From contig JAFUNR010000006.1 in NCBI GenBank assembly GCA_017472965.1, positions 38,058 to 102,057 of the forward strand: DNA of 64,000 nucleotides. The letters are read 5' to 3'. This DNA is from Oscillospiraceae bacterium (GTDB taxonomy: Bacteria > Bacillota > Clostridia > Oscillospirales > Ruminococcaceae). The position numbers were made by a program, and so were the translations under genes. Below the pieces are notes generated by a model. It made no database searches, was not told the origin of the DNA, and saw nothing but the letters and a program-made list of their open reading frames with translations. Positions 41,838 to 52,387 of the stretch are shown here, piece after piece. The first letter of the stretch is position 1. Each line of letters begins with the position of its first letter.

Positions 41838-43772
41838 ATGTCTGCACCGGAACAGCAGCCCAAGACCCAGCCTGTGGAGGAGACCGCCGCAGTGCCGCAG
41901 CACGACAGCATCGGCCGTGCTATCCGCCGCAATCTGAATATCGGCCGCATCCGCAGTCTGGCGGTGCGCGGCATCAGCTGTGTTCGTACCCGTGGCTGGC
42001 AGGCGCTTGCGCGGGAGGTGGAATTCCGCGTCAACCTGATGCTGCACCGCGAGGTGTGGAAATTCCGCGCCGACATTCCGCTGAATAAAGAGCTGAAGGC
42101 TCAGCGCAAAGAGCGGTTTGCCTGTATGCCGAAAATCAGCATTCTTGTGCCGGTGTGGAATACACCGCCCCGCTATTTTGACGAGATGGTGCGCAGCGTG
42201 GTGCGCCAGACCTATCCCAACTGGGAGCTGGTGCTGGCGGATGCTTCCGGCGCACCCAACACCGCTGACGGCGCTGCGCCTGCCGATCCCGCGCGGCTGC
42301 CGGCTTCCGGTTTTGAAAAGCGTGCGGCGAAATTCCGCGATAAACGCATCGTCTACCGCCGTCTTGGTGCAAATGAGGGCATTGCCGGCAATACCAATCA
42401 GGCACTGGCCGCCGCTTCGGGCGACTGGATCGCTTTGTTTGACCACGATGATGTGCTGCAGCCAAACGCCCTGTATGAGATCGTCAAAGCTATCAATGAC
42501 ACCGGCGCGGATTTCGTCTATTCGGATGAGATCGTGCTGGACGGCGAACTGAAAAAGCTGGTACAGTACCATTTCAAGCCGGACTGGTGTCCCGAGCAGC
42601 TGCAGGGCTGTAATTACATCACCCATTTCTCTGCTTTTTCAAGGGAACTGCTGGAAAAGGCCGGGGCAGAGGAGCGTGCGGAGTACAACGGTGCACAGGA
42701 TTATGATCTGATCCTGCGGCTGACCGAAAATGCCCGCCATGTGGCACATGTGCCAAGGGTGCTGTACATCTGGCGAAGCCACGCAGCCTCCACCGCAAGC
42801 GATATCACCGTCAAGCCCTATGCACTGGAAGCCGGTCGCAAGGCGCTGGAAGCACATTTTGAGCGCATCGGGTATCCCGCTTCGGTGGAGACCCAGCTGC
42901 AGTACCCCGGCAGCTACCACCCCACGGTGGCGGTGAAAGGGGAGCCGATGGTCAGCGTGATGATCCCCAACAAGGACCATACCGACGATCTGGAGCGGTG
43001 TCTTGAAACTCTGTATGCCAATGCCGGCTGGCGGAATATGGAGGTCCTCGTTATCGAGAACAACTCCACCGATCCTGCCACCTTCGCATACTACGAGCAG
43101 GCAAAGCAGCGCTATGCCGGTCTGCGCATCGTCACATGGGCGGGGCCCTTCAACTTCTCTGCTATCAACAACTATGGCGCAGATGCCGCAAAGGGCGAGC
43201 ATCTGCTGCTGCTGAATAACGACATCGAGATCACATCGCCGGATTTTGTCCGTGAACTGCTGAGCTATTCCCAGCAGCCGGGCGTGGGTGCGGTGGGTGC
43301 AAAGCTGCTGTATCCGGATAATACCATCCAGCACGCCGGTGTGATCGTGGGCATCAACGGCACGGCGGGACACAGTCACAAGGGACTGGATGCGAAGAAC
43401 GGCGGCGATCTGAACCGCCTTGTCACCACCCAGAACTATTCCGCTGTCACCGGCGCGGCACTGATGGTCAAGGCACAGCTGTACCGCGAACTGGGCGGTC
43501 TGAACGAGAAGGATTTTGCCGTTGCCTTCAATGATGTGGATTTCTGTCTGCGTCTGGTGGAGGCCGGTTACCGCAATGTCTATACCCCCTATGCGCAGGG
43601 CTATCACTACGAGAGCAAGAGCCGCGGCTATGATACCGCCGGCGCCAATCTGGAGCGGTTCGAGCGGGAGAAAAAGGCTTTTGTCACCCGACATGCCGCC
43701 ATCATGGAAAACGGTGACCCCTGCTACAACCCCCATTTCACCTATCTGTACGAGAATTACGGCTATAAATAA
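41838..43772 (+). CDS. Glycosyltransferase with two GT2 domains
   Basis: A 644-residue cytoplasmic protein with two GT-A folds. The first starts at PKISILVPVWNTPP (about 97) and has a DHDD metal motif; the second starts at VSVMIPNKDHTDDL (about 372) with LLNNDIEI. It resembles large rhamnan and cell-wall polysaccharide transferases such as RgpF/RgpI neighbours. It should add sugars to the growing chain before export. It shares long stretches with the next gene, indicating tandem duplication. The N-terminal ~60 residues are variable and basic. Confidence 0.87.
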   Translation: MSAPEQQPKTQPVEETAAVPQHDSIGRAIRRNLNIGRIRSLAVRGISCVRTRGWQALAREVEFRVNLMLHREVWKFRADIPLNKELKAQRKERFACMPKISILVPVWNTPPRYFDEMVRSVVRQTYPNWELVLADASGAPNTADGAAPADPARLPASGFEKRAAKFRDKRIVYRRLGANEGIAGNTNQALAAASGDWIALFDHDDVLQPNALYEIVKAINDTGADFVYSDEIVLDGELKKLVQYHFKPDWCPEQLQGCNYITHFSAFSRELLEKAGAEERAEYNGAQDYDLILRLTENARHVAHVPRVLYIWRSHAASTASDITVKPYALEAGRKALEAHFERIGYPASVETQLQYPGSYHPTVAVKGEPMVSVMIPNKDHTDDLERCLETLYANAGWRNMEVLVIENNSTDPATFAYYEQAKQRYAGLRIVTWAGPFNFSAINNYGADAAKGEHLLLLNNDIEITSPDFVRELLSYSQQPGVGAVGAKLLYPDNTIQHAGVIVGINGTAGHSHKGLDAKNGGDLNRLVTTQNYSAVTGAALMVKAQLYRELGGLNEKDFAVAFNDVDFCLRLVEAGYRNVYTPYAQGYHYESKSRGYDTAGANLERFEREKKAFVTRHAAIMENGDPCYNPHFTYLYENYGYK

Positions 43773-43843
43773 ACCGAACCCCGGATGGGAAAGCTCCTGT
43801 CCGGGGAACACTGTATCATTTATCGGAAAAAAGGAGCGACACC

Positions 43844-45655
43844 ATGGCACAAAGGATCAAACGCCTGCGCGAGCTGTTCGCCTACGGTTGGGGCTATCTG
43901 CGGCAGGAGGGCTTTGCCCGCACATGGAAGCGGGGCGTGGGCTTTCTGCGCCGCCGCATGAAAAGCAAGCGGGGCCGCTACCTGCCTACAAAGCAGGTGC
44001 TGGCCGCACAGCGGGCTTTCTGTGCCACCGATGCGGTGAAAAGCTGGCCGAAGATCAGTGTGCTGGTGCCGCTTTTCAACACGCCGGATAAGTATCTGAC
44101 CGATCTGGTGGAAAGCCTGCTGAAGCAGACCTATCCCAACTGGGAGCTGTGTCTTGCGGATGCCTCCACCACTGAAGCCGTCCGCGTGGCCGAAACGCTG
44201 AAAAAATGGAACGATCCCCGCATTGTGACAAAGAGGATCGAGAATAAAGATATCGCCTCCAACACCAATGCCGCCGCCGAAATGGCTACCGGCAGCTGGC
44301 TGGCGCTGCTGGATCATGACGATATCCTTTCGCCCAACGCCATGTACGAGGTCGCAAAGGCCGCCGCCGGGCAGCCCTGCGGCTTTATCTACAGCGACGA
44401 AGCACTGTTTACCACCGATATCACCCGTCCCACGGCAGGACATTTCAAGCCGGATTTCGCACCCGACTATCTGCGCAGCTGCAACTACATCTGCCATCTG
44501 GCAGCCTTTACCAAAGAGCTGTATGAGGCGGTCGGCGGTGAGCGCAGCGAGTGCAGCGGCAGCCAGGATCACGACCTGTTCCTTCGTCTGACAGAGCGCA
44601 CCGGCGGCGCTTACCATATTCCCAAGGTGCTTTACTACTGGCGTGTTTCCGCAGCCAGCACCGCCGGCGGTGTGCAGGCAAAGCCTTATGTGGAGGCTGC
44701 CGCCATTCGCGCCATCGATGAGCATCTGCAGCGTACCGGTCTTGCCGGTCACACGGAAAAGGGCATTTATCCCAGTACCTATCATGTGGTCTACGATATT
44801 CCCGAGCCCGCGCCGCTGGTATCCATTCTGATCCCCAACAAGGATCATACCGACGATCTGGAGAAAGCACTTGCTTCCATTTATGCGCTGACGGATTATC
44901 CCGCCTTCGAGATCATTGTCATTGAGAACAATTCCACCGATCCTGAAACCTTCGCATATTACGCCGCTGCGCAGCTGAAATACCCCAACCTGCGCGTCAT
45001 TGAATGGAAAGGACCCTTCAACTTCTCGGCCATCAACAATTACGGCAGAAAAGAGGCGGGGGGAGAGTACATCCTGCTGCTGAATAACGATGTGGAGGTA
45101 CTGAGCGCCGGCTGGCTGCGGGAGATGACCGCTCTGGCCATGCAGCCGGGCGTGGGCGGCGTGGGTGCACTGCTGTACTATCCCGACGATACCGTGCAGC
45201 ACGCCGGTGTCATTGTGGGTCTGGGCGGCTTTGCCGGCCACAGCCACAAGTATGCCCGCCGCGGTGCCAGCGGTTATATGTTCCGCCAGGCCACCGTCAA
45301 TAATCTCTCCGCTGTTACCGGTGCCTGCCTGATGGTGCCCGCCGCAGTCTACGATGCGGTGGGCGGTCTGGATGAAAGCTTTGCCGTGGCGTACAACGAT
45401 GTGGATTTCTGTCTGCGTATCCGCAATGCAGGCTGCCGCATTCTGTTCACCCCCTACGCAGAGCTGTATCACTACGAGAGCAAAAGCCGCGGTCTGGATA
45501 AGAAGGGCGCGGCACTGGAACGCTTTGAGGGGGAGCAGCAGCGCCTGCGGGAGCGCTTTGGCCGCGAGGCATTGATCAGCGATCCTTTCTATAACCGCAA
45601 CCTGACCCTCGATACCGAGGATTTTAACGAAACCGCTGTCTTTGCGCGGGATTAA
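43844..45655 (+). CDS. Glycosyltransferase with two GT2 domains, paralog of the upstream gene
   Basis: A 603-residue protein built like its neighbour: first GT-A domain from PKISVLVPLFNTPDKYL (about 67), with LLDHDD, and a second from LVSILIPNKDHTDDLE (about 326) with LLLNNDVEV. Shared phrases such as IPNKDHTDDLE, IENNSTDP, QHAGVIVG and YHYESKSRG show a common origin. The pair probably builds alternating or consecutive linkages. It is last in the operon, 71 nt after the paralog, and ends at a long hairpin. Confidence 0.87.
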   Translation: MAQRIKRLRELFAYGWGYLRQEGFARTWKRGVGFLRRRMKSKRGRYLPTKQVLAAQRAFCATDAVKSWPKISVLVPLFNTPDKYLTDLVESLLKQTYPNWELCLADASTTEAVRVAETLKKWNDPRIVTKRIENKDIASNTNAAAEMATGSWLALLDHDDILSPNAMYEVAKAAAGQPCGFIYSDEALFTTDITRPTAGHFKPDFAPDYLRSCNYICHLAAFTKELYEAVGGERSECSGSQDHDLFLRLTERTGGAYHIPKVLYYWRVSAASTAGGVQAKPYVEAAAIRAIDEHLQRTGLAGHTEKGIYPSTYHVVYDIPEPAPLVSILIPNKDHTDDLEKALASIYALTDYPAFEIIVIENNSTDPETFAYYAAAQLKYPNLRVIEWKGPFNFSAINNYGRKEAGGEYILLLNNDVEVLSAGWLREMTALAMQPGVGGVGALLYYPDDTVQHAGVIVGLGGFAGHSHKYARRGASGYMFRQATVNNLSAVTGACLMVPAAVYDAVGGLDESFAVAYNDVDFCLRIRNAGCRILFTPYAELYHYESKSRGLDKKGAALERFEGEQQRLRERFGREALISDPFYNRNLTLDTEDFNETAVFARD

Positions 45656-45661
45656 AAAAAT

Positions 45662-45718
45662 AAGTGCGTACAGCGCAGCATCCGTGAAAGGATGTGCGGC
45701 TGTACGCACTTCTTTTTT
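45662..45718 (+). terminator. Terminator of the polysaccharide operon
   Basis: Perfect 13-bp arms (45662-45674, 45699-45711) with an inner hairpin and a T-rich tail; also suitably placed for the convergent leftward gene. Confidence 0.82.
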
Positions 45719-45728
45719 CGTTTATCGG

Positions 45729-46061
45729 TCATTCGCCTTTGACGGAGGGGATATCCGTGGCCTCCAGCTTGAAGATCACCGGGCGGAAGCCGTCGTTGCA
45801 GCTGCTGATGGCTACGCCTGGCTCTTTTGCCCAATCGTTATAAAAGAAGAATTCCTTGCCGCCGCCGTTTGCCAGCGCAAAAACATACTGATAGATACAG
45901 TTCCATGCGGTGTGGCAGAAGCCGGCAGGGCATTTGACATCGGCGTAGAAAACCTGTCCCTCCTGCATGGCCTGACAGGGACCAAGCTCCGGCTTGCCGA
46001 ATTCAGCGGCAATATCCTCCAGAAAAAGCGTTTTCAGGACAGTGATCTTTACTTTATTCAT
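45729..46061 (-). CDS. TIGR04076 family protein
   Basis: A 110-residue soluble protein. VKITVLKT at the start, GQVFYAD, GFCHTAW, YQYVFALANGG and AISSCNDGFRPVIFKLEA match the TIGR04076 family, whose function is unknown; conserved cysteines suggest a redox or metal role. It overlaps the end of the 4Fe-4S membrane protein gene by 8 nt, so the two are translationally coupled. It is last in a four-gene redox cassette. Confidence 0.82.
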   Translation of the reverse strand: MNKVKITVLKTLFLEDIAAEFGKPELGPCQAMQEGQVFYADVKCPAGFCHTAWNCIYQYVFALANGGGKEFFFYNDWAKEPGVAISSCNDGFRPVIFKLEATDIPSVKGE

Positions 46062-47016
46062 GGGGGTTCTCCTTTATATCGTAAGAAGGGCTCTGTACGG
46101 AAAGCTCGGCTGAGGAACGGCCTGTTCCCACATCGGAAAACGGTCTGTGCCAGTGAATGGCCTTTTCCGGACAGATCGCCTTACACTTGCCGCAGCGCAC
46201 ACAGTCCATGCTGTTGGGGATCTGCCAGACGGGGATATCCAGCGGGCAGGCTGCTTTGCATGCGCCGCAGCTGGTGCAGGCGGCGGGATCAACCTCGTAC
46301 CGGGCAAGTGCCGTGCGGTTGAAGCAGCCGTAGACGGCCCCCAGCGGGCACAGATACCGGCAAAACGGACGCCACAGCAGCAGACTGGCAAACAGCAGAA
46401 TGCCCAGCACCAGCGCTTTCCAGCTGAAAAGCCAGCCTGCCGCGCTGCGCAGACTTTCATTGAGCAGCATCAGCGGAATACCGGCCCCCAGCGTGCCCGC
46501 GGGACACAGATACGCACAGAACCATGGCTTGCCGTTTCCCACCACATCCACCGCGATCAGCGGCAGCAGGATGCACAGCACGCCCAGTACCGCCCAGCGC
46601 AGAGCGCGCAGCAGCTTTTCGCCGGGCAGACATTTGTGTTTTTTACGCCAGCTTTGAAATACAGGAATGCGCCACAGCAGATCCTGCACCAGACCGAACG
46701 GACACAGCCAGCCGCAGACAAAGCGTCCCAGTGCCGCGCCAATCACCAGCAGGAAGCCCAGCACATAAAAGGTGAATTTATAATGACGGCTGCCCAGTGT
46801 GGCCTGCAGTGCGCCGATGGGACAGCTGCCCAGCGCCCCCGGGCAGGAATAGCAGTTCAGCCCCGGTACGCAGAGAAGCTTGCTTTTTCCGGTGTAAATG
46901 CGGCCTTCGGCATAGCCCTTCAGGTAGCCGTTGGTCAGCGCTGTCCACACCAGCTGTACCCACAGCCGCAGCCCGCGGGCGGGGGTGCGGCGGCTGGTTG
47001 TTTTTCTCTGTTTCAT
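46054..47016 (-). CDS. NapH/YccM-like 4Fe-4S membrane protein
   Basis: A 320-residue integral membrane iron-sulfur protein with about five helices. Cys motifs recur on the membrane segments (CGWLCPFG, CAYLCPAG, CRYLCPLG), as in NapH, NosR and YccM, and an unusual Cys cluster (CVPGLNCYSCPGALGSCP) lies near the N-terminus. The C-terminus holds two ferredoxin-type 4Fe-4S clusters (CTSCGACKAACP and CVRCGKCKAICP). It should carry electrons across or along the membrane. The start MKQRKTT at 47016 lies 10 nt after the CD1871A stop; a longer in-frame form would overlap that gene. Confidence 0.87.
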   Translation of the reverse strand: MKQRKTTSRRTPARGLRLWVQLVWTALTNGYLKGYAEGRIYTGKSKLLCVPGLNCYSCPGALGSCPIGALQATLGSRHYKFTFYVLGFLLVIGAALGRFVCGWLCPFGLVQDLLWRIPVFQSWRKKHKCLPGEKLLRALRWAVLGVLCILLPLIAVDVVGNGKPWFCAYLCPAGTLGAGIPLMLLNESLRSAAGWLFSWKALVLGILLFASLLLWRPFCRYLCPLGAVYGCFNRTALARYEVDPAACTSCGACKAACPLDIPVWQIPNSMDCVRCGKCKAICPEKAIHWHRPFSDVGTGRSSAELSVQSPSYDIKENPHE

Positions 47017-47026
47017 TCCGCACACC

Positions 47027-47176
47027 TCATCCGATGCCAATGCATTCCAGACACAGGTTCACCGCCTTGCGCAGTACCTCGGCCGCCTCGCCGCGCACAG
47101 CGCCGATGCCGATGCATACCGCCCCAAGTGCCAGCAGTCCAATGGCCAGCAGATCCTTCTTTCGTTCACGCCTCAT
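47027..47176 (-). CDS. CD1871A family CXXC motif-containing protein
   Basis: A 49-residue membrane miniprotein, easily missed for its size. It has a basic start (MRRERKKD), one membrane helix (about 9-25), then [22 protein letters not shown] at the C-terminus. The closing CLECIG is the mark of the family named after Clostridioides difficile CD1871A. The Cys pair should face the same side as the periplasmic thioredoxin-like partner or exchange thiols with the Fe-S protein. It overlaps the upstream thioredoxin gene by 11 nt and lies 10 nt before the Fe-S gene. Confidence 0.8.
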
Positions 47177-47741
47177 CTTTCAACTGCTCCAGAATGGCAT
47201 CCAGCAGTCCCGTCCAGCCGGCCTTATCCAGCGCGCCTACCTGTGCGCTGCCCAGCTGGTAGCCCCCGGCATTCAGAAAAACCGTGGTGGGCAGTGCCGG
47301 CACCTGATACAGCAGCGGCATCAGCCCCTCGCAGGGCAGTAGATGCGCATAGTCCGCACCGGTCGTCTCCACAATGTCAAGCGCATCCTGCAGCAGGTAG
47401 TCGGCGGTGATGACGCCGGATGCATCCGAAATATCCGAAACTACGCCCACCAGCAGCACCTTTTTGTCGGCGTATTCCCGGGCGATCTCTCCCAGATGGG
47501 GCATTTCCTGTACACAGGGACCGCAGAAGGTTCCCCACACATTCAGCATGATGACATCATAGCCCTCGAAAAGCTCCGTCATCGTCACAGCTTCGCCATG
47601 GATCGTTTTGGTGGCGAAATCTTCGATCAGCTGGTTGCCGATCAGAGGGCTTTCGCCGGCATCCTTTGCGCCGCAGCCGGCCAGGATCGCAGCCGCCGCC
47701 AGAAAAAGGACGGCCAATAACAGAATAAAGCGTTTTTTCAT
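47166..47741 (-). CDS. TlpA-like thioredoxin-fold lipoprotein
   Basis: A 191-residue protein with a lipoprotein signal (AILAGC lipobox, Cys22), then a thioredoxin fold of the TlpA/ResA type. [17 protein letters not shown] holds the redox CGPC pair and ALPTTVFL the cis-Pro loop. It should reduce or oxidise thiols outside the membrane. First gene of the four-gene cassette, with its own promoter upstream. Confidence 0.87.
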
Positions 47742-47779: not shown

Positions 47780-47809
47780 AGTATACCACGCTGTCCCCGT
47801 AAATGTCTA
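47780..47809 (-). promoter_or_regulatory. Promoter of the redox cassette
   Basis: On the minus strand TAGACA (47804-47809), 18-nt spacer, TATACT (47780-47785) with extended -10 TGG. Confidence 0.55.
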
Positions 47810-52036: not shown

Positions 52037-52387
52037 TCAGCTTGTGGTCAGACCGAAGCTGACCTGCAGGGCGGTATCCACCTGCCGCTGCAGCTCCTGA
52101 TCAATACGCCCGGTGCACTCCCGCAGGCGGCGTTTGTCCAGTGTGCGTATCTGTTCCAGCAGAATAACGCTGTCCCGCGTCAGGCCGCACTGGCCGCTTT
52201 TCAGGGCGATGTGAGTGGGCAGATTGGTGCGGTCATGCTTGGAGGTGATGGCCGCTGCGATGACGGTGGGGGAGTGGCGGTTGCCGATATCATTCTGCAC
52301 GATAAGTACCGGCCGTATGCCGCCCTGCTCACTGCCCACCACGGGGCTAAGATCGGCGTAAAAAACCTCGCCGCGTTTTACATCCAT
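52037..52387 (-). CDS. mazF: MazF/PemK-type mRNA interferase
   Basis: A 116-residue endoribonuclease close to Bacillus EndoA. RGEVFYADLSPVVGSEQGGIRPVLIVQND contains the family's catalytic loop (given here by its start RGEVFYADLSP and the GIRPVLIVQND strand). No MazE antitoxin frame lies upstream (52388-52485 is non-coding) or downstream. The gene is third after acpS and a HAD gene, keeping the acpS-mazF linkage of Bacillus without alr and mazE. Confidence 0.88.
   Translation of the reverse strand: MDVKRGEVFYADLSPVVGSEQGGIRPVLIVQNDIGNRHSPTVIAAAITSKHDRTNLPTHIALKSGQCGLTRDSVILLEQIRTLDKRRLRECTGRIDQELQRQVDTALQVSFGLTTS

Follow-up and report, generated by a model that had tools for sequence, protein, structure and literature searches.

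The 64,000-nucleotide stretch of DNA analysed here (the window) carries adjoining genes for a thioredoxin-fold lipoprotein (TlpA), a one-helix mini-protein of the CD1871A family (CD1871A) and a NapH-like polyferredoxin membrane protein (referred to below as FeS). TlpA–CD1871A–FeS is a real module, most simply explained as having spread horizontally. Judging from the sequences, we consider it probable that the module draws electrons from ferredoxin and exports them across the membrane to surface thiols, with CD1871A adapting it to TlpA; many gut bacteria carry this compact three-gene unit and would thereby probably use iron–sulfur chemistry to hold a surface thioredoxin in its reduced state. 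A more specific version, to which we give about even chances, is that the module acts as a membrane-bound ferredoxin:disulfide reductase, with a dedicated TlpA being reduced at an outer Fe–S site that the CxxC of CD1871A completes. The module would then be a non-homologous second solution to the export of thiol reducing power. At two loci (L133 and L138) its FeS chassis would have been refitted with external flavoproteins. Lateral transfer would have carried the thiol version through gut Clostridia, treponemes and Atopobiaceae, where in some lineages it would have taken the place of CcdA–TlpA.

The locus and the conserved three-gene unit

Four genes lie on the minus strand between positions 45729 and 47741 of the window, where the initial annotation had correctly placed them together with their overlaps. 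The first (47166–47741, minus strand, 191 residues) encodes a TlpA/ResA-like thioredoxin-fold lipoprotein with a lipobox LAGC, assigned by eye, and the active site CGPC. It overlaps by 11 nucleotides the gene for the CD1871A-family mini-protein (47027–47176, minus strand, 49 residues), which has a basic N-terminus and a conserved C-terminus containing CLEC, in the window CLECIGIG. The FeS gene (46054–47016, minus strand, 320 residues) has an ATG start at 47016, 10 nucleotides past the CD1871A stop; an alternative TTG at 47040 would overlap CD1871A. The fourth gene, which encodes a TIGR04076 protein (45729–46061, minus strand, 110 residues), overlaps FeS by 8 nucleotides.

A promoter-like site (TAGACA-18-TATACT with TG preceding the second hexamer; 47780–47809, minus strand) is located directly 5' of TlpA, although with one site in 2.6 kb against a mean of 0.8 in shuffled sequences the scan is suggestive only. 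An intrinsic terminator-like hairpin with a T run (45655–45711, minus strand) lies 3' of the TIGR04076 gene and has a folding energy of −34.4 kcal/mol (z of −9.15 against 200 shuffles). The terminator pattern scan missed this hairpin, listing just a shorter overlapping one on the plus strand, and the same scan gave no terminator-like site between the four genes. Given the promoter-like site before TlpA and the strong hairpin after TIGR04076, the four genes are probably a single transcript in the window genome. No Rfam family was found at threshold around them. The neighbours scanned against Pfam were a DUF4832 protein, two glycosyltransferases and a KH-domain protein. Two tandem family-2 glycosyltransferase genes (41838–45655, plus strand) converge on the operon, and a PemK/MazF-like toxin gene is found at 52037–52387 on the minus strand.

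The linkage of CD1871A to FeS is complete in the window's family (Ruminococcaceae; 148 genomes). The NF040920 model finds CD1871A at 26 places in 23 genomes, the FeS protein is likewise found at 26 places (E of 3e-69 or better, the next match being at 1e-20), and the two genes adjoin at all 26. TlpA is present in 25 of these loci, being absent from L050 and in two pieces in L039. The counts include the CD1871A gene of L035, missed by the locus profile and found by NF040920, and the FeS gene of L048, cut by a contig end and counted by the FeS search. In a phylum set of 398 genomes, 60 have a single CD1871A place each, of which 45 score over the family cut-off, and FeS is found at 69 places (E of 1e-30 or better). 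Each of the 60 CD1871A genes precedes an FeS gene on its own strand, and 59 do so within 1.5 kb; in the remaining case the gap of 2.3 kb is occupied by a group II intron and its reverse transcriptase (L132, 4707–6672), and a genome related to the intron-bearing one (L134) has a shorter spacing. Eight of the nine FeS places with no CD1871A match were read, the second FeS copy in G281 being left out; four have a diverged CD1871A (L135, L136, L137 and L148), and the other four lack it (L133, L138 and the distant L139 and L140). Relatives in named genomes were selected with the FeS protein and number at least 592; among the best 80 of these, CD1871A is present at 80/80 loci and TlpA at 73/80. The neighbourhood co-occurrence expected of the cassette is thus borne out for its three-gene core (26/26 and 60/60 for CD1871A with FeS; 25/26 and 73/80 for TlpA).

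It is not borne out for the fourth gene. The window protein belongs to TIGR04076 (99.4 bits against a cut-off of 33), but a member lies beside the module at only one of the 26 family loci, that of the window, and at 0/80 of the named-genome loci. The locus profile was built from one sequence, and for that reason these misses would count for little by themselves; the genome-wide count used the NCBIfam model, which gave 88 matches in 66 of the 148 family genomes, adjoining the module in one genome (G000) only. The family is commoner in genomes with the module (17/23 against 49/125 others, p = 0.003). With the gene scattered across family genomes, the four-gene cassette first described was rejected as a conserved unit, and TIGR04076 is a local passenger outside the module.

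The best 80 named relatives include treponemes, one Selenomonadales genome and one Atopobiaceae genome. In the FeS tree, for which the root is not known and some MAG rows are possibly misassigned, 11 spirochaete rows form a clade with one Lachnospiraceae row (support 100/99). The Atopobiaceae row falls within a clade made up largely of Lachnospiraceae (support 100/98). Since both are nested with Lachnospiraceae, horizontal spread would be the simplest account of the distribution. Over 92 loci, FeS distances correlate with those of TlpA (r = 0.74) and CD1871A (r = 0.51), each unequalled in 2000 permutations and with shared ancestry uncorrected. A mobile element as the carrier of the unit was considered and rejected: only one plasmid record came up, and viral contigs gave no relative. 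Carriage of a two-component variant as transposon cargo was likewise dropped, as the one such locus examined closely (that of G145) has rnf genes next to it. At this locus (L164, 12005–16910) rnfC, rnfG and rnfB are upstream of the two-component variant, which hints at a link to ferredoxin supply.

Cysteine anatomy and a proposed path for electrons

The FeS protein matches Pfam Fer4_5 (PF12801) over two stretches (62.5 bits against a cut-off of 22) and falls below the cut-offs for NapH/MauN (63.3 against 213.05 bits for TIGR02163; 59.1 against 234 for PRK09477). Eighteen of its 21 cysteines are invariant in all 105 aligned rows (102 of them different), the exceptions being residues 129, 148 and 231. 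The motifs are CX3CP at 101/105, CX3CP at 219/223 and two C-terminal 4Fe-4S sites with eight cysteines. Hydropathy peaks clearly near residues 92, 151 and 205, with lesser peaks at about 27, 66 and 175. The content of Lys and Arg per residue is 0.36 in residues 1–18 and 0.17 in 100–135, compared with 0.07 in 41–78 and 0.05 in 158–196; that of segment 217–240 is intermediate (0.095) and not strongly basic. From this charge bias, and with the ferredoxin part inside, we infer that Cys49, Cys55, Cys58, Cys65, Cys167 and Cys171 are on the outer face. Both CX3CP motifs and the eight ferredoxin cysteines would be on the inner face. The topology is reasoned and uncertain, because the first helix is weakly hydrophobic and segment 217–240 is not strongly basic. 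The best 60 of 143 PDB matches cover the ferredoxin part of FeS, and none of those listed matches the membrane module. In the passages at hand of PMC5928378 (2018), the role of the CX3CP motifs in NapH, NosR and PceC is described as not known, and the iron content of NosR is taken as a reason for favouring disulfides over clusters there.

The window CD1871A is a member of its family (NF040920; 53.4 bits against a cut-off of 32). Its flanks average 3.0 basic and 0.4 acidic residues before the helix and 2.4 basic and 2.6 acidic residues after it, counted in 104 of the 105 rows (the remaining row lacks the motif pattern). This bias indicates that the N-terminus is inside and the C-terminus outside, so the CxxC would probably be on the outer face, as is the lipoprotein TlpA. 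The window TlpA, with its CGPC, scores over the Pfam cut-offs for both AhpC-TSA and Redoxin, and so belongs to the thioredoxin fold; it falls below the cut-off of the ResA subfamily model (52.4 against 170). It resembles ResA and the structures 2yp6 and 4hqz, which we take to be pneumococcal Etrx reductases. The window's own genome, an assembly that is 85% complete, has no second TlpA beyond a weak match of 109 residues. Methionine sulfoxide reductase was considered as a client of TlpA and set aside, since no MsrB was found in the same 85% complete assembly.

We propose the following path. Reduced cytoplasmic ferredoxin, the presumed donor, would load the two C-terminal 4Fe-4S sites of FeS, and the electrons would travel by way of the two inner CX3CP motifs through the NapH-like membrane module, with its four helices, to an outer site formed by the six family-specific cysteines. 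CD1871A, a single-pass protein held against FeS with its CxxC outside, would either act as a dithiol electron acceptor or complete the outer site. The lipoprotein TlpA would be reduced there and would then pass electrons to surface disulfides. The sequences themselves show the module, its linkage, the invariant cysteines and, in two genome sets, the inverse distribution with CcdA; the topology, the direction of electron flow, the clusters at the CX3CP motifs and the outer site, the order of the carriers and the clients are inferences from them. The chemistry of ferredoxin:thioredoxin reductase runs from cluster to disulfide, and that of the outer site would resemble it in passing one electron at a time from a cluster to a two-electron disulfide; the module differs in being membrane-bound and in facing outwards. 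No ferredoxin:thioredoxin reductase domain is among the Pfam matches of the four window proteins.

The chain from FeS through CD1871A to TlpA that was suggested by the initial annotation is supported for its three-gene core, but the closest tie of CD1871A is to FeS and not to TlpA. CD1871A and FeS occur without TlpA at seven of the 80 named loci, at one of the 26 family loci and in a divergent group in which FeS lacks Cys167; it is because CD1871A stays when TlpA is missing that we draw this conclusion. The main alternative within the exporter frame draws on the same observation. In it, CD1871A is a structural subunit, the CxxC of which ligates or shields an outer iron–sulfur cluster of the FeS protein rather than carrying electrons, and TlpA or another acceptor docks at that cluster. 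Besides the tracking of FeS in the absence of TlpA, it is favoured by the residue between the two CD1871A cysteines, which varies with the type of outer motif in FeS across 117 loci: it is Glu or Gln in 104/104 loci with the SCP form and Ser or Ala in 13/13 with the ACP form. Against this, a single phylogenetic split is enough to explain the linked residue states, and the six outer cysteines of FeS could hold a cluster unaided. We regard a structural CD1871A as a serious possibility that falls short of an even chance.

Relation to CcdA

CcdA/DsbD proteins are usually credited with keeping surface thioredoxins reduced, CcdA being the usual reductase of TlpA. In the phylum set CcdA (PF02683) is rarer in genomes with FeS (20/66 against 250/332; odds ratio 0.14, p = 6e-12), a test that ignores relatedness and that gave the same result when two weak FeS matches were counted either way. 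It is also rarer with the module in the window's family (3/23 against 56/125; odds ratio 0.18, p = 0.005). A third family, from which four weak FeS matches (E of about 1e-31 to 1e-34) were excluded before counting, shows no clear inverse link (8/12 against 74/88, odds ratio 0.38, p = 0.22; 8/12 against 61/88, odds ratio 0.89, with strict CcdA matches). Mutual exclusion of CcdA and the module was therefore rejected as a rule, the third family not being significant and 20 of the 66 phylum genomes having both.

Among the 20 strongest CcdA loci of the 59 family genomes with CcdA, 17 adjoin a match to the TlpA profile (within 190 bases on the same strand; one fused), two of the 17 without a recognisable CxxC core. 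Two of the 20 genomes (G033 and G045) also carry the module. CcdA–TlpA pairs are found at 16 of 18 CcdA loci from module-free family genomes, and in G079, a congener of the window genome. Three genera are split between a genome with the module and no CcdA and one with CcdA and no module (G000/G079, G142/G031 and G147/G042), and in three others sampled twice (g12, g14 and g22) the second genome has neither. The window's own genome has an rnfC gene and no CcdA match in its 85% complete assembly. In a TlpA tree with long-branch warnings, 23 of 24 module TlpAs separate from the 16 partnered by CcdA. On the CcdA side two of 17 rows had been removed because no CxxC core could be recognised in them, and the module rows omit L039 and L050 (no TlpA). 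With the TlpAs split by partner, the idea that one TlpA is swapped between CcdA and FeS is unsupported, and whole units rather than TlpA partners seem to have been exchanged.

Like the module as we interpret it, CcdA/DsbD with TlpA/ResA supplies a TlpA-like protein outside the cell with reducing power from the other side of the membrane. It is a thiol-only transporter, whereas the module consists of an iron–sulfur module and a mini-protein, and none of the four window proteins has a Pfam match to PF02683. In our view the best reading is that the module works like CcdA/DsbD with unrelated parts. The earlier suggestion of a DsbD-type relay built on iron–sulfur chemistry instead of CcdA therefore stands in part: genetic linkage, invariant cysteines predicted on both faces, the inverse distribution of CcdA in two of the three genome sets and the CcdA–TlpA pairs all argue for it, while TIGR04076 drops out and the electron transfer itself is presumed.

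The sequences do not fix the direction of electron flow, and in the passages at hand of PMC8238504 NapH-like modules are proposed to serve reductases and oxidases alike. Electrons could thus run inward, from external thiols by way of TlpA and CD1871A to FeS and on to cytoplasmic acceptors, which would make the unit a thiol system of an oxidative or respiratory kind. The tendency of CcdA and the module to occur apart in two of the three sets points the other way, as does the likeness of TlpA to ResA and to 2yp6 and 4hqz. CcdA–TlpA pairs are reducing. We consider inward flow unlikely.

Variants of FeS and known systems

A divergent group keeps the CD1871A–FeS order, often with TlpA in front, and has altered motifs. 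We compared 18 FeS-family loci, L139 and L140 being set aside. Cys167 is replaced by Ser in five, with no TlpA match nearby, and is retained in 13, nine of which have a gene of the TlpA type, detected weakly or by Pfam alone in three. The association gives a Fisher p of 0.03, but probably reflects one lineage. Pfam analysis of one or two neighbours each revealed no thioredoxin near the five Ser167 loci (L144, L145, L146, L150 and L151). Two relatives without CD1871A adjoin other redox proteins: that of L133 an FMN-binding lipoprotein and ApbE, and that of L138 (3021–5521) a membrane-anchored flavodoxin on one side and a Tat-exported DUF362 protein on the other. Together, the divergent motifs and flavoprotein-linked relatives suggest that FeS is a chassis with swappable outer partners, for which CD1871A is the thiol adaptor.

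NapH, NosR, PceC and the flavinylated NapH-like systems of PMC8238504, as described in the excerpts available, have in common with FeS the Fer4_5 membrane module, two CX3CP motifs and modular external redox partners, and NapH and NosR also share the two 4Fe-4S sites. FeS differs from these systems in its predicted first outer loop, which has four cysteines, and in an additional CXnCP pair predicted to be outside. The homology to NapH would allow a quinol-oxidizing module serving a terminal reductase, with TlpA as an assembly factor. FeS, however, scores far under the NapH cut-offs and has six further cysteines in all 105 rows, and no shared reductase is found in 43 and 44 neighbours (best 25 of 46 and best 25 of 41 families, respectively), so that we allow this only a small chance. 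That the four genes are neighbours with no common job holds for TIGR04076, but is untenable for CD1871A and FeS (60/60) and unlikely for TlpA (73/80), and as an account of the whole locus is barely credible.

According to the same excerpts, NapH-like exporters with flavin partners are known (PMC8238504); their partner is an FMN-binding domain, where that of the module is CD1871A and TlpA. There, clusters with DsbD or P19 are the ones credited with thioredoxin-like partners, those with NapH-like proteins are not, and the word TlpA is absent from the excerpts. The window locus does not qualify as a flavinylated system, for which an FMN-binding domain or ApbE in the cluster is required: neither is among the window neighbours scanned, and no FMN_bind is among the best 25 families listed for each of the two sets of 43 and 44 neighbours of relatives. 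The DsbD–thioredoxin–DUF4266 clusters of PMC8238504, again from the portions at hand, are similar in that a transmembrane electron carrier is accompanied by a small exported protein whose C-terminal part has two cysteines; the pair is CXC in DUF4266, found with DsbD and flavinylated proteins, and CxxC in CD1871A, found with FeS. A C. ljungdahlii operon joins a DsbD-family protein to a NapH-like protein, as stated in the part of PMC5640608 at hand.

A bioRxiv preprint of November 2025 (PMC12637426) describes, in the portions consulted, what by description is the same three-gene 4Fe-4S/TlpA/CxxC operon in Clostridia. The match is one of description and not of sequences, and on that footing the operon would be the TlpA–CD1871A–FeS module. 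Those portions place the CxxC gene in the middle in all instances but one and give three to four transmembrane segments; they suggest reduction of surface targets, call the operon previously uncharacterised and link its abundance to immunotherapy side effects. The words NapH and DsbD are absent from the preprint, and those portions have no cysteine anatomy, co-occurrence tests or mechanism of the kind proposed here. In the open-licence literature searched, we did not find a NapH-like module with CD1871A and TlpA treated as a CcdA-like system. If the proposed function is correct, it would explain how anaerobes without CcdA keep their surface thioredoxins reduced, give the CD1871A family a function and offer a setting in which to settle the role of the CX3CP motifs in NapH, NosR and PceC. 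A defined biochemical role would also make testable the correlation given in PMC12637426, where what is by description the same operon is reported as a predictor of the immune side effects of cancer immunotherapy.

Several loci have further features. In four loci of the family (L029, L035, L038 and L039) genes for a response regulator, a histidine kinase (both assigned by eye) and a lipoprotein lie in front of the unit; the lipoprotein has a weak TlpA score and no CxxC, and the two of the four that were scanned had no Pfam match. Rrf2-type regulators make up six of 44 downstream neighbours scanned, of 58 found; some regulators of this type sense redox state or Fe–S clusters. The FeS protein of L101 (5959–7485) has a long C-terminal extension which is apparently membrane-spanning. 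At L120 (6013–8175) the order is FeS–CD1871A–TlpA, and the TlpA has a long hydrophobic N-terminal part.
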